This document shows positions 32,381 through 43,990 of a stretch of DNA of 64,000 nucleotides, piece after piece. The DNA is taken from the NCBI GenBank assembly GCA_019218315.1, contig JAHUUI010000002.1:186001-250000 (forward strand), in the 5' to 3' direction. Position numbers and translations under genes: made by a program. Numbering within the stretch: the first letter of the stretch is position 1; the number at the start of each line of letters is the position of its first letter. The notes beneath the pieces were generated by a model. That model searched no databases. It saw only the letters and a list, made by a program, of their open reading frames with translations, and was not told the origin of the DNA. This DNA comes from Cardiobacteriaceae bacterium TAE3-ERU3 (GTDB taxonomy: Bacteria; Pseudomonadota; Gammaproteobacteria; Cardiobacteriales; Cardiobacteriaceae).

Positions 32381-32396
<16 letters not shown>

Positions 32397-32683
32397 GAGA
32401 GAAACGCTCCATTATCCAATTCATAAACGGCCAACATCTTACGCAAATGTTCACCAATATTCACCCATTGCAGTTCTATTTCTTGCTCACGTGCTTTGCG
32501 AATCAGCAAAACCAAAGCTGCTATACCAATACTGTCTGCTTTCTCTACTTTATGTGCATCAATAGTGACAGAATCAGCCGGAAAGCTAATCTGGCGGCTA
32601 CTCAAGCCCTCACAATCAGCTAGGCAAAAACTGGCTGGCAGGCACAGTGTCGTGCCCTGCCAATCATCAAAAACATTACTCAT
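32381..32683 (-). CDS. mlaB: STAS-domain protein MlaB
   Basis: 100 residues from the ATG that overlaps mlaC by eight bases; another ATG six bases upstream is possible. It is a STAS domain: VTIDAHKVEKADSIGIAALVLL holds the central beta-alpha segment with the conserved Asp-Ser pair. MlaB binds the ATPase MlaF in the inner-membrane MlaFEDB complex and is required for its activity. Sequence conservation in this family is low, so the call leans on position at the end of mlaFEDC. Confidence 0.8.
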
Positions 32684-33284
32684 TGCCATCCATACCGCGC
32701 ACTTTCTCAATCAGCCCATCAATACCAACGCGCTCTATATCACTGGCAAAGCTATTGCGGTAACTGAGCAGAATAGATACGTTTTCAAAGCTGGCATCAT
32801 AGATTTTCCATTGCCCATTTTGTTCGTGCAAGCTGAATACAATAATCGCCGGTTTTTTGCCTCGAGGAGTAACTTGCATGCGGACATCCGTCCGGTTGTA
32901 CTTATCAATACCAGAGTTACCAAGAATTTTGAACGTAGCATTGGTGTCGTATTGCTTCCAGCTGTCAGAATACAGGCGGATTAACATACTGCGAAATGCA
33001 TCGACAAAAGCATCCTGCTGAGCTGGCGTTGCTTGGTTCCAGTAGCGGCCAAGGACAATACGCGACATGATTTTGAAATCGAGATACGGCAAAATTTCAT
33101 TGTCAATCAATTTATTGAGTGCAGCACGGTCGTTGCGATACAGCTCGGGTTTGCTATTTACCTCATCAAGCAAAACAGCTGCCTGCTGCTCAACCAATGC
33201 TTCTGCACCGGCCGGATTTGGTTCGGCATGTGCGGTAAGAGAAAAACCCACAAAGGCTGCTACAGCCATCAGTATTCTTTTCAT
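32676..33284 (-). CDS. mlaC: Periplasmic phospholipid-binding protein MlaC
   Basis: 202 residues with a clear signal peptide ending LTAHAEPN. The mature part is an NTF2-like MlaC (Ttg2) domain with FKIMSRIVLGRYWNQATPAQ and RLYSDSW, the usual conserved stretch. MlaC shuttles phospholipid between the outer-membrane MlaA complex and inner-membrane MlaFEDB. A 60-base gap separates it from mlaD, the largest gap inside this operon. Confidence 0.9.
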   Translation of the reverse strand: MKRILMAVAAFVGFSLTAHAEPNPAGAEALVEQQAAVLLDEVNSKPELYRNDRAALNKLIDNEILPYLDFKIMSRIVLGRYWNQATPAQQDAFVDAFRSMLIRLYSDSWKQYDTNATFKILGNSGIDKYNRTDVRMQVTPRGKKPAIIVFSLHEQNGQWKIYDASFENVSILLSYRNSFASDIERVGIDGLIEKVRGMDGNE

Positions 33285-33344
33285 CCTTTTTTCCTCGTTG
33301 GTTAAACCATCATTATCATTAAAAAATAAATGCCGTGTCAGTTA

Positions 33345-33806
33345 CTATTTCGTCGAGATATCACTGACGAACTGCTGAATCAGGCGTTCAATGACCATTG
33401 AAGAGCCAGTATATGCAATCTGATCACCATCTTCGAGTGTGGCAATGCCGCCCCCCTCAGTAATCCCGATGTATTTTTCCCCAAGTAAACCAGCTGTCAG
33501 TACTTCTGCACTGCTGTCATTACCAAAATTGTTGTATTCAATGGATATCTCGAGGTCTACACGTGCCTGCATGCTTGCTGGGTCAAGCGTGATAGATTTA
33601 ACCTTTCCGATCTGGACACCAGCTGACGTTACAGAGGCATTTTTATTCAGGCCACTAACATCTGTAAACATACCGTAAACTGTATAAGTACTCGATGCAT
33701 GAAAGCCTCCCATGTCTGTCGTACGCAGCCCCAGAAATGCAGTTGCCGCAAGCGCGAGAATAACGAACAACCCCACCGCAACGCTGACAAAGCGATTATC
33801 TTGCAT
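33345..33806 (-). CDS. mlaD: MCE-domain lipid transport protein MlaD
   Basis: 153 residues from the ATG behind GGAGG, one base after the mlaE stop. One membrane helix (about 9-27) and a single MCE domain with the pore-loop region GLLGEKYIGI. MlaD forms a hexameric ring on MlaE that holds lipid in the periplasmic channel. The length agrees with single-MCE MlaD proteins. Confidence 0.92.
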   Translation of the reverse strand: MQDNRFVSVAVGLFVILALAATAFLGLRTTDMGGFHASSTYTVYGMFTDVSGLNKNASVTSAGVQIGKVKSITLDPASMQARVDLEISIEYNNFGNDSSAEVLTAGLLGEKYIGITEGGGIATLEDGDQIAYTGSSMVIERLIQQFVSDISTK

Positions 33807-33807
33807 A

Positions 33808-34587
33808 CTAACCTCCAAACATAAACGCAGTAAGGATGAAATCCAACCCCAGTACCGCTAGTGAACCAAGAACAACTGTTTTCGTCGTTGCAACCCCCAT
33901 ACCGCGTACGGTAGGAGATGAAGCAAAACCCTGATAAACCGCAATGGCAGATATCACGATACCGAAAATAAAACTTTTTATAACCAAGCCTTCAATCAGG
34001 TCATTATAAAGGTTAACCCCATTTTGCATCTGCGACCAGAATATACCGGCATCAACCCCGAGATTAATTACCCCGACGACATAAGCTCCACAAATCGCAA
34101 CTCCGACAAACAACATCGCCAATAGAGGCATCGCCAGTAAAGCACCCCAAAAACGCGGTACACCAACTTGACGGACGGGATCAATACCCATCATCTCCAT
34201 TGCCGCAAGCTGTTCAGTGGTTTTCATCAAGCTGATTTCAGCGGTAAATGCTGATCCCGCTCGGCCGGCAAACAATAGCGCACTGACAACAGCACCAAGC
34301 TCGCGCATCAAAGATAGCGAAACCATTAAACTCAATGATTCTTCAGCCCCAAAGCGCACAAAAATGGTATACCCCTGAAATGCGAGAACCATTCCAACAA
34401 AAAAGCCGGCAACAATAATGATCGGTAATGACAGCACACCAGCTGAAAAAAGTGCGCGAATTGCCTGAATCGGCTTGCGCCACAACTCACTCGTCCCCGC
34501 AATAAGGCGCAACAAAAACAAAGTAAAGCTGCCAATACCGCTAACGACCTCAATACATCGATCACCAAAGCGAGCTAACCATTGCAT
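33808..34587 (-). CDS. mlaE: Phospholipid ABC transporter permease MlaE
   Basis: 259 residues from the second ATG of ATGATCATG; the G-rich Shine-Dalgarno is better spaced for it than for the first ATG. It is a MlaE/YrbE permease with about five hydrophobic segments. The segment ELGAVVSALLFAGRAGSAFTAEI with the following AAMEMMGIDPVR is the family hallmark that contacts MlaF. It forms the membrane core of MlaFEDB. Confidence 0.93.
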   Translation of the reverse strand: MQWLARFGDRCIEVVSGIGSFTLFLLRLIAGTSELWRKPIQAIRALFSAGVLSLPIIIVAGFFVGMVLAFQGYTIFVRFGAEESLSLMVSLSLMRELGAVVSALLFAGRAGSAFTAEISLMKTTEQLAAMEMMGIDPVRQVGVPRFWGALLAMPLLAMLFVGVAICGAYVVGVINLGVDAGIFWSQMQNGVNLYNDLIEGLVIKSFIFGIVISAIAVYQGFASSPTVRGMGVATTKTVVLGSLAVLGLDFILTAFMFGG

Positions 34588-34589
34588 GA

Positions 34590-35390
34590 TCATTTCACCC
34601 CCAGCAAAGTATCTGAATAAGACATACCAGGATAATGATATGGCACGGGCCCATCACTTTCAGCGTGCATGAACTGATGAACCAGTGGGTCGTCAGATGC
34701 ATACAGTGCGTCGGGGCAATCATTGGCGACCACGCGCCCACCTGCAATCAAGATGATCCGATCCGCAATACGAGAAGCCTCCGCAATATCATGGGACACC
34801 ACGATACTGGTCATGCCAAGGCTATCATTTAGATCACGCACTAATCGCGCAAGCACACCGAGTGAAATTGGGTCTTGCCCGGTAAACGGCTCATCATAAA
34901 TCATCAGCTTTGGATCACGCACAATAGCACGCGCCAATGCCGCACGTCGGGCCATTCCACCAGATAATTCTGATGGCATCAAATCCCTCGCACCGAGTAG
35001 CCCTACACGCTGCAACTTCATATCAACGATGATATCTATCAATTCATCGCTCAATTTCGTTTTTTCGCGCAACGGAAAAGCCACATTTGCCCCAACCGTC
35101 ATATCGCTAAATAACGCTCCACTTTGGAACAACATACTCATATCACTGCGTAGTGCCATCAGCTGCCGCTTGCCCATGCCGTTTAAGCGTTTTCCAAGAG
35201 TTGTCACTTCACCGCAATCAACCTTTAATTGCCCGGTAATGATTTTCATCAAAGTGGTTTTACCGGTGCCACTCGGCCCCATCACTGCAATGACTTCACC
35301 AGCCGGAAAATCCACATCAATGTTATCAAAGATGATCCGTTTGCCACGGCGAAAAGTCATGCCGCGCAAGCTTGCTATTGCATCAGTCAT
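34590..35390 (-). CDS. mlaF: Phospholipid ABC transporter ATPase MlaF
   Basis: A 266-residue ABC ATPase. Walker A GPSGTGKT is at 38-45, the signature ELSGGMARR at 141-149, Walker B LMIYDEP at 162-168, and the switch VVSHD follows. The Met-Ala-Arg-Arg after LSGG is typical of MlaF. GGAGG stands before the ATG, which overlaps the end of the EVE gene by eight bases. It powers lipid movement through MlaED. Confidence 0.94.
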   Translation of the reverse strand: MTDAIASLRGMTFRRGKRIIFDNIDVDFPAGEVIAVMGPSGTGKTTLMKIITGQLKVDCGEVTTLGKRLNGMGKRQLMALRSDMSMLFQSGALFSDMTVGANVAFPLREKTKLSDELIDIIVDMKLQRVGLLGARDLMPSELSGGMARRAALARAIVRDPKLMIYDEPFTGQDPISLGVLARLVRDLNDSLGMTSIVVSHDIAEASRIADRIILIAGGRVVANDCPDALYASDDPLVHQFMHAESDGPVPYHYPGMSYSDTLLGVK

Positions 35391-35853
35391 TTACGCCTCC
35401 GAGTTTTAAAATGTGAGCCCATTGTTGCGGCGTCACTGGCATTACTGATAGTCGATTGCCTTTTTGAAGCAACGCCATGCCAGCCAAACTTGGTTCTTCA
35501 CGCATGTTTTTTAAAGCTACGAAGTTAGGCAGGTAGCGAACGCTACGAACATCAACCTGCCACCACCTTGGTGACTCCTCGCTGCTACGCGCATCAAAAT
35601 AGTGAGATTTGGTATCAAACTGGCTAGGATCCGGGTACGCAGCCCGAATCACTTCAGCAATCCCCGCGATACCTGGCTTAGGTGTTGAAGAGTGATAGAA
35701 AAACACTTGATCACCCACAACCATATCGCGCATAAAATTACGCGCCTGATAGTTACGCACACCACTCCAGCCTTCGCCCTGCTCACCACATGCTACTAGA
35801 TCATCGAATGAAAATTCATCCGGCTCTGATTTCATTAGCCAGTAAGCAGGCAC
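35383..35853 (-). CDS. EVE-domain protein
   Basis: 156 residues from a GTG with GAGG eight bases upstream; this gives the family N-terminus VPAYWLMKSEPDEFS. The PUA-like EVE domain has GVRNYQARNFMRDM, GDQVFFYHSS and the closing LQKGNRLSVMPV. EVE domains bind modified bases in DNA or RNA and are common as stand-alone genes in proteobacteria; the target here is unknown. It lies between tamB and mlaF and is coupled to mlaF, but nothing suggests a role in lipid transport. Confidence 0.85.
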   Translation of the reverse strand: MPAYWLMKSEPDEFSFDDLVACGEQGEGWSGVRNYQARNFMRDMVVGDQVFFYHSSTPKPGIAGIAEVIRAAYPDPSQFDTKSHYFDARSSEESPRWWQVDVRSVRYLPNFVALKNMREEPSLAGMALLQKGNRLSVMPVTPQQWAHILKLGGVND

Positions 35854-35914
35854 TGTACAATCCTCAAATTTCGTGACAAAAGTGCGGCATGATAGCACAC
35901 CGCACCCAAGTCAT

Positions 35915-38900
35915 TTAATTGCTTTCAAATTCGTAAATAAAGTCAATTGCATTATCTTGCCCACTTGCCGTTGCTTCGGCTTTGAGACGATCACTGAATT
36001 GATAACGAGCAATAAATTCCGTCAGTGCAGTAAAGAAATTAGACTGCATACCAACATACAGGTCATCACCAAGGTACTTACCTGCTTTCATGCCGGTTAC
36101 GCCAATATCTAAAACATCAAGCCCTGTTTCCTGCGCAAGATTATCCGGGAAGACGCCGCCTAGCGTATAGCTCGCAGCGGTTTGGAGCAATGCATCTGTA
36201 TCCGTGCCTGAATCAGGCGCACGCCCAAACAATAAATAAGAGAGAATTGCCGAATCAGGCATTGCCGGGTTTGAAGTCAGGGTTAGGTGTAAATGCTCAA
36301 CATCGCCATTAATCTGTGCACCAGCTTGAACATCTGCAATCTCACGCAATGCCAGTACTTCTACTGTAGGGTTAGCTATATTGCCACCAGAAAAGGTTAC
36401 TCGCCCGCGCTTGATATCGAGCTCTTGCCCATAAAGTTCGTAGATACCACTAGCGACTGAAATCGTACCTTCTGCTGTGATAGGACGATTCGGACGCATA
36501 AATACCGTAATACCACCAATTAAGCGCAAATTGACGTCGCTGTTGTTGAAGTAAACTTGATCGCCCAGCTCGACAGCAATACTTGCATTAAAGGGTGTCT
36601 GCGCGTTCTTGATTTTTTCCTGGGTAGATTTGTCGTCCTTGCCGACAATCACTACATCTTTCGAGACACTCACACCACCTGAAGTATCAGGTATTGATAC
36701 ACGTGCCTCTGGAATGATCACTTTCCCATCAACATTGATGCCCTGATCCGGATCTATTTTGACATCGAAACTTGGCGTCACGACAACGCGCATATTTTCC
36801 GCATCGGCGATCAACATATTCTGGCCATCAAGATTAAGATCAAGGCGTACAGGCGCTAAAGCCAGAGCGCCATTGATATCGAGGGCGCCACGTGGCGTGC
36901 CTACTTGACCATTGATATCAATTTTGCCTGTGCGTGCCGCTGAAAGCTGCAAGCGAATATCACTCAGCTCTGTTGCATATTCAGGAATAACAATATAGCC
37001 GCCAGCAAGCTCGATTTGCCCACCTACAGCAGGATTAGACGCAGCTCCTGAAAAACGTAAATCACCATTAATGCTGCCACGCATGTCACTAACCATTGGT
37101 ACGAGATAGCGGAATTCACCGATATCTGGAATATTTACTGCAAGTTGCCCATCTAGCTTGGGCGCAGAAAAGTCACTGATCCGGGTACGGAGGCTAAGTT
37201 CACCAGCATCAGCAAATGCAATGTCTGACGCTATATTTGCCTGCTGTCCCTTAAATGCGGCAATAATGTTTCCTTTGGTCAGGTCCAAGGTGACTGGAGC
37301 AGAATCCTCAGGAGCAATAACAATATTCCCGGGTGTAAAGGTGATATCAGCTTGCCCGCTCATCTGCCCATTAGCCGCAATGCGTACATCCCCTTTCCCC
37401 TGTGCAGTGATTGTTGTGCGGATCATGTCAGGTATAAATGCTGCAAAGCTTTGCGGCGATAATTTGTCAATTCGATAAGTAATTGCGGTTTGCTGATCAT
37501 GCGCTACATCAACACACAAACCCGATATCCCATCCACGAGGCAAAAATCGTCCAGTTTTTGACTTTTGGGTGATACCGCCAGAGCACTCGCTTGCTGCAA
37601 GTGCCAATTCAAGCCATCTCCGGTTGCATTAAGCTGAGTAATTTTCCCAACCCAACTATCAAGTGCTTTTAGCCCGCCTTGTGCAGCCAAATCAAGATTG
37701 AATTCCCCACCATTGGTTAAGAATTTTATAGTGTGTTGATCAAACTTGCCCTCTGTATTCAGGGCGATAGACTGCCATTGCTGACCAGCCAGCGATACGC
37801 CCGAAAGATTAATGGTATTGTTCAACGCACCACCTGTACGCAACGCGCTATCTAAGCGAACATCAGCGCTACTGATACGGTAATCCTGATACGCAATATT
37901 TTTTGCTGAAGCAGTTATATCCACTTCAGGCTGTTCAGCGTTACCTTTGATTGAACCAACAGCATCGAAAGTACCACCAAGTGGCTTGTACAGGGATGAC
38001 AAATTACGCCCTTCAATGTTGAACTTCATATCAAATTTGCCATCGGCGACACCACCGCTGACAGCAAATTTATTCTCCCCCAGGCCAACCTCCATGCCCT
38101 GCATACTGACTGAACCATTTTCCAAGATGACACTACCTTGTCCCCTCAGAGGCTCACCATTCAACGTGCCGCTGATGGATTTTATTTCTGCGTTAGCATT
38201 GAGCTTACCGGATTTTGAAATCTTCCCTTCACTGGCAATATCTGCGTTAACCTTACCTTCATAGCCGTCAACAAAGGCGCCCGGATTGAAATTTTCCGTC
38301 TTTAGATCAATAGACCAACTGATTTCAGGCTGTAAATCAGCACTTCCCGTAAGTCTGGCACGCCCATCACCCTGCTGCAAAACAAGATCAATATCATTAA
38401 CCCGCTTGGGGTTGACTCTCGCACCGCCACTTAAGCGACTTTGCGGAAAGTCACGGCCTGAGGCGATTAAATCAGTTTGGACATCTAACCCGTCGATATT
38501 ACCTTTTGCCTGTAATCCACCTTGAGCAGAGTCAAATAGTACCGCATTGCTATCGGGATCTTTATAGCGTAAGTTTTGCCACTGCAAATCTGCGTCGATA
38601 TTCGGATCATTAACTGCACCAGTCAAGCTGGCATGGCCTTTCACCGCACCACTGATCCCTGGCACCAAAGCCCCTAACTGACCAGCATCAATATCAAGCG
38701 CCAACTCTCCTCCACTTTGATCGAGCACACCGTTAGCATTAATCCGGTTATTGGCGATATTGAGTCGTAAATTCTCTGCGCGAATACCGCTGCTATCGTA
38801 ATGTACTGCGCCATTACCTTCGAGAGGGTAATCAAGCAATGAGCCACCCAGCTCATTGATGGTCATATCAGCGGCTATATCACCGTCGCTTGAGATTGTA

Positions 38901-41900
38901 CCGCTGCTGGCGATATTGGCATTGATATTTCCAGGATAGTCCGGCACAAAACGGCTTGGATCAAAATCTTTGCTATCAATCTTAATATCCCAACTTACGT
39001 CTGGCTGAATAGCCACACTACCAGTAACGTGAGCGGTACCTTTACCACTAACAAGCTGCAAATCAATATCACTGACCTGCTCTTGATTAACATGAGCACG
39101 CCCTTTTAGGCTGCTTTGTGGAAAATCTCGCCCAGATGCCGTCAACTCAGTTTGCACATTGAGCCCATCAAGATTGCCTTCTGCTTGCAGCCTACCTAGT
39201 GGTGAATCAAACAAAACAGCATCCACTTGCGTATCTGTGTAGCTCAGGTTTTGCCACTGTATGTCAGTGTCGATAGTGGGGTCATCAATGGCACCAGTAA
39301 GCGTTGCTTTACCACTCACGGCACCAGCAACACCCGGCACTAAAGCACCAAGCTGATTAGCATCAATATCTAGCGCAAGTTCACCACCACTTTCATTGAG
39401 TTCTCCATTGGCACTGATTCGGTTTCCGGCAATATTGAGCAGCAAATTATCTGCACGTATGCCATCTTTATCGAAGCGGATATCCCCATTGCCTTTGAGT
39501 GGTTGGTTTAACAGCGTACCGTTAAGCTCGTGAATCGTCGCATAAGCTGCAATTTTTCGGTCACTTGTGATCACGCCATTACTGGCAATATTGGCATTAA
39601 TATTACCCGGGTAGTCTGACGCAAAACGGCCTGGATCAAAATTTTGACTCTCAACATTGACGTCCCAAGCAATATCGGGCTTAAGTGTGACCACTCCGGT
39701 CACATGTGCTGTACCTTCGCCGCTTGTAAGCTGCAAGTCCATATTACTGATTTCAGTCTGGCTCACATCTGCACGGCCACCCAAGTGACTTTGAGGAAAA
39801 TCACGGCCAGATGCAGTCAAATCAGTGACAACATTCAGCCCTTCTAAATTACCTTTCGCTTGTAGAGTTCCTTGCTCAGACTCAAATAATACGGTCTTGC
39901 TCTCACTTTCTGTATAACTCAGGTTTTGCCACTGCAAATCTGCATTGATATTAGGATCATCAATCACGCCACTTAAAGTGGCTTTACCACTTACAGCACC
40001 CGTCATTTCAGGTACCAATGTTGCCAGCTGGGCGGCATCAATATCTAATAACAACTGACCATCGCTGTCGTTAAGCTCACCGTTTGCATTAACCCGATTG
40101 CCCGCAATATTGAGCAGTAAGTTATCTGCACGAATGCTATTTTCATCGTAATGAACAGCACCATTACCAGTAAGGGGTAAATTGAGTAACGTACCAACAA
40201 GCTCATTAATAGTGGCACTGACCGCAATTTTTCCATCACTTGCGATGACACCGCTGCTATCAATATTGGCATTAATACTACCTGGATAATCTGATACAAA
40301 ACGACCCGGATCGAATTGCTCACTGACGACATTGACATCCCAGGCAAGATCTGGCTTCAATGCAACTGCACCAGTCACATGGGCACGACCTTCACCACTG
40401 ACAAGCTGCAAGTCAATATCCCTGATTCGCTCAACAGATGCGACCGCTTTCCCTTCAACTTGAGTAGGTGGGAAATCACGACCGCTGGCTTCAGTACTGA
40501 CCAATAAATTTAATGCACTGGGCTGACCTGAAATATCCAAATCCCCATTAGAATGACGCAACAATTGCTCACCGCTATCATTGGTATAGGAAAGATCACG
40601 CCACTTCAGCGCTCCATCAATATCAAGATTACTTATATCACCACTCAACAGGAAGTGAGCATTGACATTGCCATCCACAGCCGGAGTCAAGTTATCCAAA
40701 TGCGCAGCATCAAGAATTACATTTAAGGCACTGTTACTTTCACCAAGCTCGCCAGTCGCAGTAATGGTATTTTCAGCAATATTGAGGTGGAAACCTTGGG
40801 CATTCACCCTTCCATTTGCATATCGCAGGGTACCGTCGCCATTGAGCGGGTAGCCTTGCCAACTACCTTGCAATGTATTGATCGTGAGCAAAGCATGCTG
40901 ATCCTTACTGCTTAACTCACCTTCTGTGACGACATCGGCATTAAGAGTCAGATCCAGATCTTTTTGGTAAGCGCTACCATCAATATCTCTAGCGGTTAAA
41001 CTTCCTTGCCAGCTGATAACGGGGGCGAAAGAAACCTCACCAATAAACGCCACCGTGCCGTTAAGCGTCCCAATATCAAGATGGATATCTTTCGCACCAT
41101 TGGCTGATACTTCCGCACCACCATTAATACTGGTTGCAGGAATGTCTTGCCCGGCCAATTGGGCATCTGCACTTATGGCAAGCTGCTCGAAGGGGCCAGC
41201 TGCACGTAAATACCCTTCTTCACTGGTGATGCTCTCAGCCACCGCCAGCTGCTGCCAGTCAACCTTTAAATCCAGCTGCTGCTTATCGAGTTCCACGAGG
41301 CCAGCAACTGTCGCATCAAGCTCTGCATAACCCGTTGCCGCAATATTCATGGCTGGCTTCAACACGCTCCCTGAAGCATCGATCTTGAGCTTCTGAGGCT
41401 CAGCAAGGTTGTGCACGGTAGCTTCCGCATCAAGCTTGAGCGGATAATCTTCCAAAGTTGTTAAATCCACATCCAATTGCGCATCGGCCAAATCACTACG
41501 CATCATCACCGCACTGGTAAGATGACCATGCTGGTAGCGTGCATTGAGCTCGGCGTGGTCAATCTTGATAATACTCGTGCCACTCTGTGATACAGCGACA
41601 TCATCAAGGCGTACTTCGTCAAGCACGACATCAAACGGCAAATCAATTTGTGGCAAATGCTTCGGTATACCACCAGATGTATCATCAGGCTGAGTACTTT
41701 CCTGCAGATCAATATCTGCCCCTGAAAGGAGCACTTGCGAAAATGCAACTCTTGCGGGTGAAAAGCCGCTGTCATTATCAATAATCAGCGCATCAGCGTG
41801 AGCATCAACCCCAGGACCCTGTAGCGAAAAATCTCGCCATGATTGGCGCGTCCACAAGTGCCCTTCCAGCGATGAATAGCTAATTTTGTAAGGGCTTAAC

Positions 41901-42046
41901 GCACTGATGACTCGAGGCAATTGCCGGTAGCCAGTCTCAGTCGCGGTAAAATATGCCAATAATGCAACCAGCAATAAGACGATCAACAGTAAAGTCAACA
42001 GCAGCCATTTGATTGACTTGAGTAAAAAACCAACAGTGTTTTTCAT
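35915..42046 (-). CDS. tamB: Translocation and assembly module TamB, greatly enlarged
   Basis: 2043 residues against about 1260 in E. coli. One N-terminal membrane anchor (about 12-33) is followed by a very long periplasmic beta-strand-rich region and the conserved C-terminal DUF490/TamB domain that closes with YQFSDRLKAEATASGQDNA. TamB is an AsmA-like protein that bridges the membranes and forms a hydrophobic groove for phospholipid transport, acting with TamA. The extra length comes from tandem modules: the motif SGRDFP recurs with its Asp at residues 524, 749, 974 and 1199, exactly 225 residues apart. It follows tamA by three bases, so the two are cotranscribed. The frame is open throughout, with no sign of decay. 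Confidence 0.93.
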   Translation of the reverse strand: MKNTVGFLLKSIKWLLLTLLLIVLLLVALLAYFTATETGYRQLPRVISALSPYKISYSSLEGHLWTRQSWRDFSLQGPGVDAHADALIIDNDSGFSPARVAFSQVLLSGADIDLQESTQPDDTSGGIPKHLPQIDLPFDVVLDEVRLDDVAVSQSGTSIIKIDHAELNARYQHGHLTSAVMMRSDLADAQLDVDLTTLEDYPLKLDAEATVHNLAEPQKLKIDASGSVLKPAMNIAATGYAELDATVAGLVELDKQQLDLKVDWQQLAVAESITSEEGYLRAAGPFEQLAISADAQLAGQDIPATSINGGAEVSANGAKDIHLDIGTLNGTVAFIGEVSFAPVISWQGSLTARDIDGSAYQKDLDLTLNADVVTEGELSSKDQHALLTINTLQGSWQGYPLNGDGTLRYANGRVNAQGFHLNIAENTITATGELGESNSALNVILDAAHLDNLTPAVDGNVNAHFLLSGDISNLDIDGALKWRDLSYTNDSGEQLLRHSNGDLDISGQPSALNLLVSTEASGRDFPPTQVEGKAVASVERIRDIDLQLVSGEGRAHVTGAVALKPDLAWDVNVVSEQFDPGRFVSDYPGSINANIDSSGVIASDGKIAVSATINELVGTLLNLPLTGNGAVHYDENSIRADNLLLNIAGNRVNANGELNDSDGQLLLDIDAAQLATLVPEMTGAVSGKATLSGVIDDPNINADLQWQNLSYTESESKTVLFESEQGTLQAKGNLEGLNVVTDLTASGRDFPQSHLGGRADVSQTEISNMDLQLTSGEGTAHVTGVVTLKPDIAWDVNVESQNFDPGRFASDYPGNINANIASNGVITSDRKIAAYATIHELNGTLLNQPLKGNGDIRFDKDGIRADNLLLNIAGNRISANGELNESGGELALDIDANQLGALVPGVAGAVSGKATLTGAIDDPTIDTDIQWQNLSYTDTQVDAVLFDSPLGRLQAEGNLDGLNVQTELTASGRDFPQSSLKGRAHVNQEQVSDIDLQLVSGKGTAHVTGSVAIQPDVSWDIKIDSKDFDPSRFVPDYPGNINANIASSGTISSDGDIAADMTINELGGSLLDYPLEGNGAVHYDSSGIRAENLRLNIANNRINANGVLDQSGGELALDIDAGQLGALVPGISGAVKGHASLTGAVNDPNIDADLQWQNLRYKDPDSNAVLFDSAQGGLQAKGNIDGLDVQTDLIASGRDFPQSRLSGGARVNPKRVNDIDLVLQQGDGRARLTGSADLQPEISWSIDLKTENFNPGAFVDGYEGKVNADIASEGKISKSGKLNANAEIKSISGTLNGEPLRGQGSVILENGSVSMQGMEVGLGENKFAVSGGVADGKFDMKFNIEGRNLSSLYKPLGGTFDAVGSIKGNAEQPEVDITASAKNIAYQDYRISSADVRLDSALRTGGALNNTINLSGVSLAGQQWQSIALNTEGKFDQHTIKFLTNGGEFNLDLAAQGGLKALDSWVGKITQLNATGDGLNWHLQQASALAVSPKSQKLDDFCLVDGISGLCVDVAHDQQTAITYRIDKLSPQSFAAFIPDMIRTTITAQGKGDVRIAANGQMSGQADITFTPGNIVIAPEDSAPVTLDLTKGNIIAAFKGQQANIASDIAFADAGELSLRTRISDFSAPKLDGQLAVNIPDIGEFRYLVPMVSDMRGSINGDLRFSGAASNPAVGGQIELAGGYIVIPEYATELSDIRLQLSAARTGKIDINGQVGTPRGALDINGALALAPVRLDLNLDGQNMLIADAENMRVVVTPSFDVKIDPDQGINVDGKVIIPEARVSIPDTSGGVSVSKDVVIVGKDDKSTQEKIKNAQTPFNASIAVELGDQVYFNNSDVNLRLIGGITVFMRPNRPITAEGTISVASGIYELYGQELDIKRGRVTFSGGNIANPTVEVLALREIADVQAGAQINGDVEHLHLTLTSNPAMPDSAILSYLLFGRAPDSGTDTDALLQTAASYTLGGVFPDNLAQETGLDVLDIGVTGMKAGKYLGDDLYVGMQSNFFTALTEFIARYQFSDRLKAEATASGQDNAIDFIYEFESN
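38453..40477 (-). repeat. Three in-frame 675-bp tandem modules inside tamB
   Basis: Units 39803-40477, 39128-39802 and 38453-39127 each encode 225 residues. Each runs from DFP through SGEGxAHVTG, FDPxRFxxDYPGxINANI, IRAxNLxLNIAxNRxNANG, LxLDIDAxQL, GAVxGxAxLTGA and DLQWQNLxY back to ASGR. The protein copies agree at roughly two thirds of positions by eye. A diverged unit of 223 residues precedes them (40478-41146, marker QDIP) and a partial diverged unit follows (to about 38150). This is coding duplication, not a mobile element or CRISPR. Confidence 0.9.
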
Positions 42047-42049
42047 AAA

Positions 42050-43990
42050 TCAGAGATCCAGTTCAGTACCGACATTAATGTGAAAACGGACTTTCTTACT
42101 ATTTGGCTCATTTAACCCATGAGCAATATCAATGGAGATCGGGCCAACCGGCGAGCTCCAGCGCACACCAACACCAGCGCCAACTTTGGTGTCAAATTTG
42201 TGGGTAAAGGCATCACCGGCGTCAACAAATACCGCAGCAGCCCAGTCCGGCTTAAAGTAATACTGGTACTCCAAGCCAACAGTCGCTTTATATTTACCAC
42301 CTATATTACTGCCACCACTATCACGCGGGCCGATTTGTTCGTAGCCATAGCCTCGTATCGACCTATCCCCACCAGCAAAATAACGCAGACTCGGCGGCAA
42401 CTGGCTAAAGTTGTCCGTCCACGTTGCGCCCAAGTCAGCACGTGCTGACACTGCATTTTTATCATTAAATGGATACAGCGCACGTAGCTGCAAATCCGCT
42501 TGTGCGAAAGAGACATCAGATAAAGCGCCTTTTACCGCTCCGCGCCCACCGATACCAATTTGGTAGCCTGACTTGGGGTTAATTCGGTTTGTATTCGAGC
42601 TGTAAATAACTCGAGCTTGAGGATAAGTCAGCAAAACCTTTGCGTGATCAGAACCAATCGTAAAATCTTCTATTGCACTAACCAAGGCATAACGGTGCGA
42701 CCAATTGTCCACAACAAAGTTATAACCGCCTTCGGCAAAAGCACGCGTCGTTTTATATTTATCTTCCTCACGGCTCGCACCAAGTCTAAAATAATAATAA
42801 TCAGTGGTCGGGTTTTCAGCCGGTATGCGGTAAATATTGTCGAAGCTGTACTTCCTTTGCGAGACGAAGGTTTTGCTGCTAAAAGTATGGCCACGACTGT
42901 TCACCCAGCGCCAATCAAAATCGAACTTACCGCGCACACCTTCATCAGTCGAATAGCCAATGCCAAACACATAGCGCTTGTTCTTATTCATGGTTAGCTT
43001 TGCTTCGACAGGCACCGTCTTTGTCGCTGTATCAGGTTTATTGCCAACCAAGACTTGCTGAAAGTAGCCACTACCTTGCAAATCTTGCTGCAAAACAGCA
43101 ACGTCTCTTGAAATATACGGTTCACCGGCTTTAAAACCAACAAAACGCTCTAACAAATCCTCATCTAACGGTACTTCGCTAAAATCCACATCACCAAAGC
43201 GATAACGCGGGCCACTGTCATACACCAATTCAATATCAGCTTTATTGGTTTCAGGGTTAACGTAAACGACACTACGCTCAAACTGGGATTCAAAATAACC
43301 GCGCGCTCCAGCCAGTGCCTCAAAGCGAGATTTATAGCGCTCATAGATTAGGTGGTTTAACTGATCACCCGATTTCAGTGGATTATCTTGCAACAGCTCA
43401 GCAAACTTGGCATCGCCCATGGCTTGACCTTCAAGCTTCACAGAAACCTTATCAATATGAACAGGATCATTAAGGCGAACATCATAAGAAACAATCAGGT
43501 TATTGCCCTCGAAATGTTTTTCAACTGAAACATCGACGTTGTAATACCCAAATGGTTGCTGGGATGTGGCAATTTCTTTTTGCCCATTTTCAATCAGGTA
43601 AGCAACGTAATTAGGGCGATCGACCTCTTTATCTTTGAGTTTTTCTAGCGTCAAAAACACCCGCGCATTATTGAGCTGTTCTTCGTTTTCAATACCACTT
43701 ATTTTTATATCAGAAACTGTTTTTCCGTCCAAGACATCATTTTCTTCTACTGTCTTATGACTACCAACATCTCCACCTGTATTACTCTGATCATCTTCCG
43801 CAAACTGAAGATTTTCCAAAGGATTACCTTTTTTTAGCTCAATTCGCTCAACATTTTGCGAGGACTGGCTTGCGGCTGCAGCTGTATCTGGCTGTGCGTC
43901 TTGCGAGGATAAATTTGGCAATTGCCCACCACATCCAACCACAAAAACAGGGAATAACGATAAATATAGAGCAGTATTGTGTTTCGTCAT
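42050..43990 (-). CDS. tamA: Omp85-family outer-membrane protein TamA with a lipoprotein-type signal
   Basis: 646 residues: N-terminal POTRA domains (from about 90 to 335) and a C-terminal 16-strand barrel with the Omp85 signature GGDRSIRGYGYEQIGP and a terminal strand ending in leucine. TamA pairs with TamB, the next gene. Unusually, the N-terminus is a short hydrophobic segment ending in lipobox VVGC (Cys20) followed by Gly, then about 65 polar residues rich in Ser, Gln and Asp before the first POTRA. E. coli TamA has a normal cleavable signal and no cysteine there. GGAA precedes the ATG. Confidence 0.92.
   Translation of the reverse strand: MTKHNTALYLSLFPVFVVGCGGQLPNLSSQDAQPDTAAAASQSSQNVERIELKKGNPLENLQFAEDDQSNTGGDVGSHKTVEENDVLDGKTVSDIKISGIENEEQLNNARVFLTLEKLKDKEVDRPNYVAYLIENGQKEIATSQQPFGYYNVDVSVEKHFEGNNLIVSYDVRLNDPVHIDKVSVKLEGQAMGDAKFAELLQDNPLKSGDQLNHLIYERYKSRFEALAGARGYFESQFERSVVYVNPETNKADIELVYDSGPRYRFGDVDFSEVPLDEDLLERFVGFKAGEPYISRDVAVLQQDLQGSGYFQQVLVGNKPDTATKTVPVEAKLTMNKNKRYVFGIGYSTDEGVRGKFDFDWRWVNSRGHTFSSKTFVSQRKYSFDNIYRIPAENPTTDYYYFRLGASREEDKYKTTRAFAEGGYNFVVDNWSHRYALVSAIEDFTIGSDHAKVLLTYPQARVIYSSNTNRINPKSGYQIGIGGRGAVKGALSDVSFAQADLQLRALYPFNDKNAVSARADLGATWTDNFSQLPPSLRYFAGGDRSIRGYGYEQIGPRDSGGSNIGGKYKATVGLEYQYYFKPDWAAAVFVDAGDAFTHKFDTKVGAGVGVRWSSPVGPISIDIAHGLNEPNSKKVRFHINVGTELDL

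Follow-up and report, generated by a model that had tools for sequence, protein, structure and literature searches.

Escherichia coli possesses two further bridges beside TamB, namely YhdP and YdbH. The groove of TamB binds lipids in simulations (PMC12800296), and the E. coli protein was modelled at 178 Å, or 246 Å when stretched, versus 268 Å for YhdP; it is unsettled whether it is long enough to reach TamA (PMC11014939). The eukaryotic bridges VPS13C and VPS13D became longer when groove units in their central part (about 500 residues, in five-strand units) were duplicated internally before the last eukaryotic ancestor, and Levine noted that how the number of domains relates to the width of the contact 'has yet to be studied' (PMC7613979). 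For bacteria, the accessible parts of two accounts reported that the length of TamB is consistent, very long proteins being rare exceptions (Heinz et al., 2015; PMC4494059), and that Deinococcus DR_146T has two tamB motifs (PMC5382914); neither an array of tandem modules nor a ladder of copy numbers or a mechanism of growth was described in those parts. In this study, we analyzed a stretch of 64,000 nucleotides (the window) from Cardiobacteriaceae bacterium TAE3-ERU3 (assembly GCA_019218315.1, contig JAHUUI010000002.1, positions 186,001 to 250,000) and found a tamB gene with five tandem modules. Its product is probably a TamB whose periplasmic lipid-conducting beta-groove was lengthened by three in-frame 225-residue modules through crossing-over between two older modules, A and B.

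Searches confined to the open literature revealed no description of TamB proteins with tandem modules or with a ladder of copy numbers. Among the eukaryotic bridges, central duplication is already established for VPS13 (PMC7613979). The TamB described here resembles VPS13C and VPS13D in having grown by internal duplication of groove units, and differs from them in that its units have 14 strands, the growth was seen in one species of its family and the crossover can still be read.

A TamB with five tandem modules

Open-reading-frame reading of the window revealed an uninterrupted frame of 2043 residues on the minus strand (Table 1), and several features agreed with the proposal of a preliminary description that its product is TamB. 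First, the protein exceeded the curated cut-off of the NCBIfam equivalog model NF047952 (TamB, AsmA-like superfamily). Second, it ended in the TamB domain PF04357, which is expected to be the TamA-docking end. Third, inspection of residues 1-36 revealed a hydrophobic stretch corresponding to the inner-membrane signal anchor of TamB. Finally, a gene of the tamA family, the partner of tamB, was located directly upstream. Judged from its sequence, the protein is a genuine, orthologous and functional-looking TamB.

The motif SGRDFP started at residues 521, 746, 971 and 1196, which places its marker Asp at 524, 749, 974 and 1199, each 225 residues apart, and a diverged copy (GQDIP, Asp 301) was present 223 residues before the first of them; the marker Asp positions, their spacing and the earlier diverged copy had been given correctly in the preliminary description. 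The self-comparison suggested there as a check yielded a gapless match at an offset of 225 that scored 1946 across 675 residues, while shuffled proteins reached at most 53; the 225-residue periodicity is far above chance. The array occupied residues 275-1397 (window 37856-41224), and the interval proposed before, 38150-41146, lay inside it. It consisted of an ancestral module A (M1), three added modules (M2-M4) and an ancestral module B (M5). Although the copies had been called exact, this was true of their spacing only, as M2-M4 shared 59-66% of their residues and approximately 67-69% of their DNA in pairwise comparison. Tandem Repeats Finder, whose period limit is 500, reported no repeat in the gene, owing to this limit and to the divergence of the copies. 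The same divergence bears on the idea that the array is an assembly artefact or a set of mis-joined copies, which has a negligible chance of being correct and was rejected: approximately one-third of the bases differ between copies, the frame is open throughout, the contig measures 564 kb, and an assembler neither merges nor multiplies copies this divergent.

We then compared this TamB with those of its relatives, using a set of 12 Cardiobacteriaceae genomes that included the source, with one genome of the source species and one congener. TamB contained two diverged modules, A and B, in each of the 11 other genomes, and the nine two-module genes that were readable in full encoded orthologues of 1355-1413 residues. 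In Rappaport israeli (G006; L011 / L038), tamB was split into two frames of 390 and 1051 residues, reflecting either a genomic frameshift or an assembly error. TamB of the congener had 1368 residues, i.e., 675 fewer, or exactly three modules (2043 - 675 = 1368), and cutting 675 residues at about 489-513 produced a near-gapless end-to-end alignment to it. The earlier suggestion that three extra modules explain the size was therefore exact with regard to the nearest relative, and the figure of about 1260 residues that had been quoted for E. coli TamB also agreed with the 1259 residues of the K-12 protein. The latter (structures 9xdc and 9xdd) has the curated family, the tamA neighbour and the C-terminal domain in common with the present protein but is 784 residues shorter and contains one copy of the element instead of five, since a profile of the 90-residue unit described below matched it once; a single 225-residue module could be aligned to residues 378-598 of 9xdc.

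Origin and age of the added modules

In the module alignment, M2, M3 and M4 each resembled B in the first half and A in the second half. Approximately unbiased (AU) tests of the first half rejected a grouping with M1 (p=0.047) as well as with M1 plus the A module of the congener (p=0.008), and accepted a grouping with M5. For the second half, grouping with M5 was rejected (p=0.0002), whereas grouping with M1 was not (p=0.26).

Such a make-up bears the signature of unequal crossing-over, and these data fit a scheme of three steps, which we consider probable. A family ancestor would have carried two diverged tandem modules, A followed by B. Unequal crossing-over, in which B of one chromosome recombined with A of the sister chromosome, would then have generated a third, hybrid module with the front of B and the back of A, an event that predicts the observed order of A, (B then A), B. 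This third module would subsequently have been amplified to three copies, which diverged for a long time under purifying selection. The in-frame tandem duplication that had been postulated as the source of the modules was supported.

Two comparisons placed this amplification in time. First, M2-M4 (59-66% identical) were more alike than the orthologous modules of the two congeners (36-42%), and unless the copies have been homogenized by gene conversion, the amplification thus appears to be younger than the divergence from the congener. Second, where residues were identical among M2-M4, the codon was also identical in 42-50% of cases, versus 37-38% expected at random. Silent positions are near saturation and the duplication is therefore old, in contrast with the recent origin that had been assumed. 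Of the two signs of ancient origin named in the preliminary description, near-saturated silent divergence was found, whereas equal length among relatives was not (two modules versus five). With the protein kept and silent sites nearly saturated, sequence comparison indicates that M2-M4 are under purifying selection.

Predicted structure of the array

AlphaFold2 modelled M2 and M3 (12 aligned rows) with a pLDDT of 91.9 and 14 strands per module, which short helical turns divided into blocks of 6 and 8. The model of M1-M5 (pLDDT 83.2) contained 14 strands in each of the five modules, giving 70 consecutive antiparallel strands in an unbroken sheet, as predicted for a beta-groove (beta-taco). Thus, the expectation that added modules should lengthen the bridge, and the structure prediction proposed to check it, were supported at the level of models, in which each module added 14 strands and no break. 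Three added modules correspond to 42 strands, and the usual strand spacing in a beta-sheet is 4.8 Å. At this spacing the extra groove would amount to at most approximately 20 nm of sheet contour, and scaling by residue number from the 178-246 Å of E. coli TamB would give about 10-13 nm.

Fold searches with Foldseek and VIA-align returned general beta-sheet matches alone, the best being the beta-sheets of ApoB100 and others being barrels, and a weak match to the LPD-3 complex (E 0.037); in contrast, the match of the module to TamB came from sequence comparison. The repeat of the eukaryotic RBG superfamily (VPS13, ATG2 and others), which has five strands and a crossover loop, was not recovered, as 14 strands were modelled per module.

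Possible function of the lengthened groove

The reading of this protein as a TamB with a lengthened groove builds on the anatomy, orthology, module count relative to relatives, hybrid make-up, age and predicted fold that were observed or computed here. It also draws support from the neighbouring mla genes, from the lack of YhdP and YdbH matches over the cut-off in the family and from the lipid binding of the TamB groove in simulations (PMC12800296). By analogy with E. coli TamB, the N-terminus would be anchored in the inner membrane and the C-terminus docked on TamA, and phospholipids would pass to the outer membrane along one continuous hydrophobic groove. The 42 strands of the three extra modules would then give the bridge reach, slack or bend; both this mechanical effect and lipid conduction itself are extrapolated from that analogy.

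Several points weigh against this reading. First, the tree of the second halves put the added modules between A and B, outside A, and an A parentage of these halves is not rejected rather than proven. Second, the five-module model had a pTM of 0.43, so that its overall shape, curvature and straightness are not settled. Third, TamB is also a protein-assembly factor, and it is possible that a lipid role is not the sole use of the added groove. With regard to the last point, the longer groove might serve protein clients, acting as a chaperone for strands of autotransporters or other outer-membrane proteins. The TAM assembles some outer-membrane proteins and its groove can hold a beta-strand (PMC5719984), and three autotransporter domains over the cut-off were present in the source genome. 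However, the two-module congener had two such domains and another two-module relative had three. We rejected a link with autotransporter clients, as no clear contrast between five- and two-module genomes followed module number, and consider a groove grown for protein clients improbable.

Independent TamB arrays in other families

Through a survey of the class, we located other long TamB proteins. In the unrelated family f70, a unit of 90 residues was present in 2, 4, 8, 10, 13 or 16 copies (L187, 2; L185, 4; L179, 8; L130 and L131, 10 each; L177, 13; L178, 16), and TamB length was approximately 1023 + 91 x copies, from which no protein departed by more than 14 residues. Genus g79 alone contained forms with 8, 10, 13 and 16 units, so that variation in copy number, which the preliminary description had guessed at between strains, is real between congeneric species of another family. 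In the 225-residue module, the 90-residue unit had its homologue in the second half; it comprised about six strands on the model. The f70 arrays thus resemble the array in the window in that TamB has grown by tandem groove units, and differ from it in their independent origin, unit length, graded series of 2 to 16 copies and species-level variation within a genus. Two more f70 genomes, L182 (residues 400-1250) and L183 (residues 567-1800), carried arrays of 71- and 112-residue units. In the centre of these arrays, copies were 95-96% identical in DNA, compared with approximately 55-67% for copies near the ends; this pattern suggests very recent growth from the middle. A further, mosaic array with periods of about 102, 162 and 264 was found in family f80. 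Some genomes with 71-, 90-, 112-residue or f80 arrays were fragmented, which makes their individual copy numbers less certain. Two other long frames of the survey (G305 and G171) were rejected as arrays because they had no internal repeats and their excess looked like an over-long start.

Counted by eye, the 71-residue unit had four strands and the 112-residue unit six. An even strand number keeps the antiparallel direction, and this may, tentatively, be a structural rule for adding a unit. Such a rule could also operate under neutral growth, in which a doublet prone to unequal crossing-over would gain parity-keeping units that fold harmlessly and length would drift with little functional effect. 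The occurrence of several independent arrays with units of 71, 90, 112 and 225 residues accords with this idea, and central copies were the most alike, as slippage predicts. On the other hand, protein identity of 59-66% was kept among M2-M4 despite near-saturated silent sites, which argues for purifying selection, and 11 of the 12 Cardiobacteriaceae species had exactly two modules. We therefore regard neutral growth as a conceivable but rather unlikely explanation.

TamB length and the possible loss of YhdP

Neither YhdP nor YdbH had a match over the cut-off in any of the 12 Cardiobacteriaceae genomes, whereas YhdP exceeded it in 248 of the 276 genomes of the class. Among TamB, YhdP and YdbH, TamB may thus be the principal bridge in this family, or the only one. 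One could suppose that selection fitted module number to an envelope of greater width, or that it allowed TamB to bridge the full distance in organisms that have lost YhdP. The modelled reach of E. coli TamB, which is below that of YhdP even when stretched (PMC11014939), would be consistent with this. Using TamB lengths transcribed by hand from the class survey, we found that three of the 10 genomes without YhdP had a TamB of at least 1900 residues, compared with none of the 118 with YhdP. Within family f70, g229 and g232, with full-length YhdP matches, had TamB of approximately 1050-1300 residues, while g79 and g225 (8-16 units) were without such matches. However, TamB length was unrelated to YhdP overall, and a general link was rejected (p=0.42), since the difference was confined to the extreme tail, which consisted of two lineages and depended on a threshold chosen afterwards. 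In addition, family f80 has a TamB array yet keeps YhdP, and the two-module Cardiobacteriaceae also lack YhdP matches over the cut-off. A bridge measured to the envelope, or compensating for YhdP, is thus possible but does not appear to be the favored explanation.

Genomic neighbourhood

The coordinates of tamB, its modules and the neighbouring genes are listed in Table 1. An EVE-domain gene was located between the tamA-tamB pair and an mlaFEDC(B) set, the mla genes being downstream on the same strand (32381-43990, minus). The order murJ-tamA-tamB-mlaF-mlaE was common to Rappaport israeli, Dichelobacter nodosus, Cardiobacterium hominis and one metagenome-assembled genome. The mla and tamB genes are neighbours in Veillonella as well, where genetic data support phospholipid traffic in opposite directions (PMC10665443).

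The N-terminus of TamA in the window (MTKHNTALYLSLFPVFVVGCGGQ) contained a lipobox-like VVGC, followed by a linker of approximately 70 residues ahead of the first POTRA domain. The lipobox-like motif was absent from the readable TamA proteins of the congener and seven other family members. On the basis of this motif, TamA may here be a lipoprotein, like TamL of Bacteroidota, that shares the genome with a long TamB.

Table 1. Features of the tamB locus, with positions in the window
Feature	Position	Strand	Basis
tamB, five-module form, 2043 aa	35915..42046	-	open frame; NF047952 ATportTamB 938.2 bits, cut-off 825
N-terminal hydrophobic membrane anchor, residues 1-36, MKNTVGFLLKSIKWLLLTLLLIVLLLVALLAYFTAT	41939..42046	-	read from sequence
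Module M1, residues 275-497, ancestral module A	40556..41224	-	profile match; module alignment
Module M2, residues 498-722, added hybrid	39881..40555	-	missing from congener; B-like first half, A-like second half
Module M3, residues 723-947, added hybrid	39206..39880	-	as M2; exact 225-residue register with M2
Module M4, residues 948-1172, added hybrid	38531..39205	-	as M2; exact 225-residue register with M3
Module M5, residues 1173-1397, ancestral module B	37856..38530	-	profile match continuing into conserved C-terminal part
C-terminal TamB (DUF490) domain, residues 1719-2041	35924..36892	-	Pfam PF04357, E 1.1e-60
tamA, 646 aa, partner Omp85 protein	42050..43990	-	Pfam Omp85, POTRA, POTRA_TamA_1; NF047950 491.8 bits, below 625 cut-off
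mlaF-like ABC ATPase	34590..35390	-	ABC_tran; gene order kept in family
mlaE permease	33808..34593	-	PF02405
mlaD	33345..33818	-	PF02470
mlaC	32676..33284	-	PF05494
mlaB-like STAS protein	32381..32710	-	PF13466 STAS_2

Implications

How bridge-like lipid transporters gain length, and whether length follows the gap that they span, is the question addressed here. In the TamB of the window, growth was caught within one genus, with the recombination event legible in the sequence, and family f70 offers a natural gradation from 2 to 16 units with which the question of length becomes testable in bacteria. It is even imaginable, though we would put it forward as speculation, that TamB is an evolvable, length-tunable bridge whose modules are gained and lost by unequal crossing-over with strand parity kept, their number being selected for envelope geometry or for the replacement of YhdP. 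If this were true, the five-module form, together with the forms of 8 to 16 units, would provide a ready-made test of whether membrane separation sets the length of the bridge.

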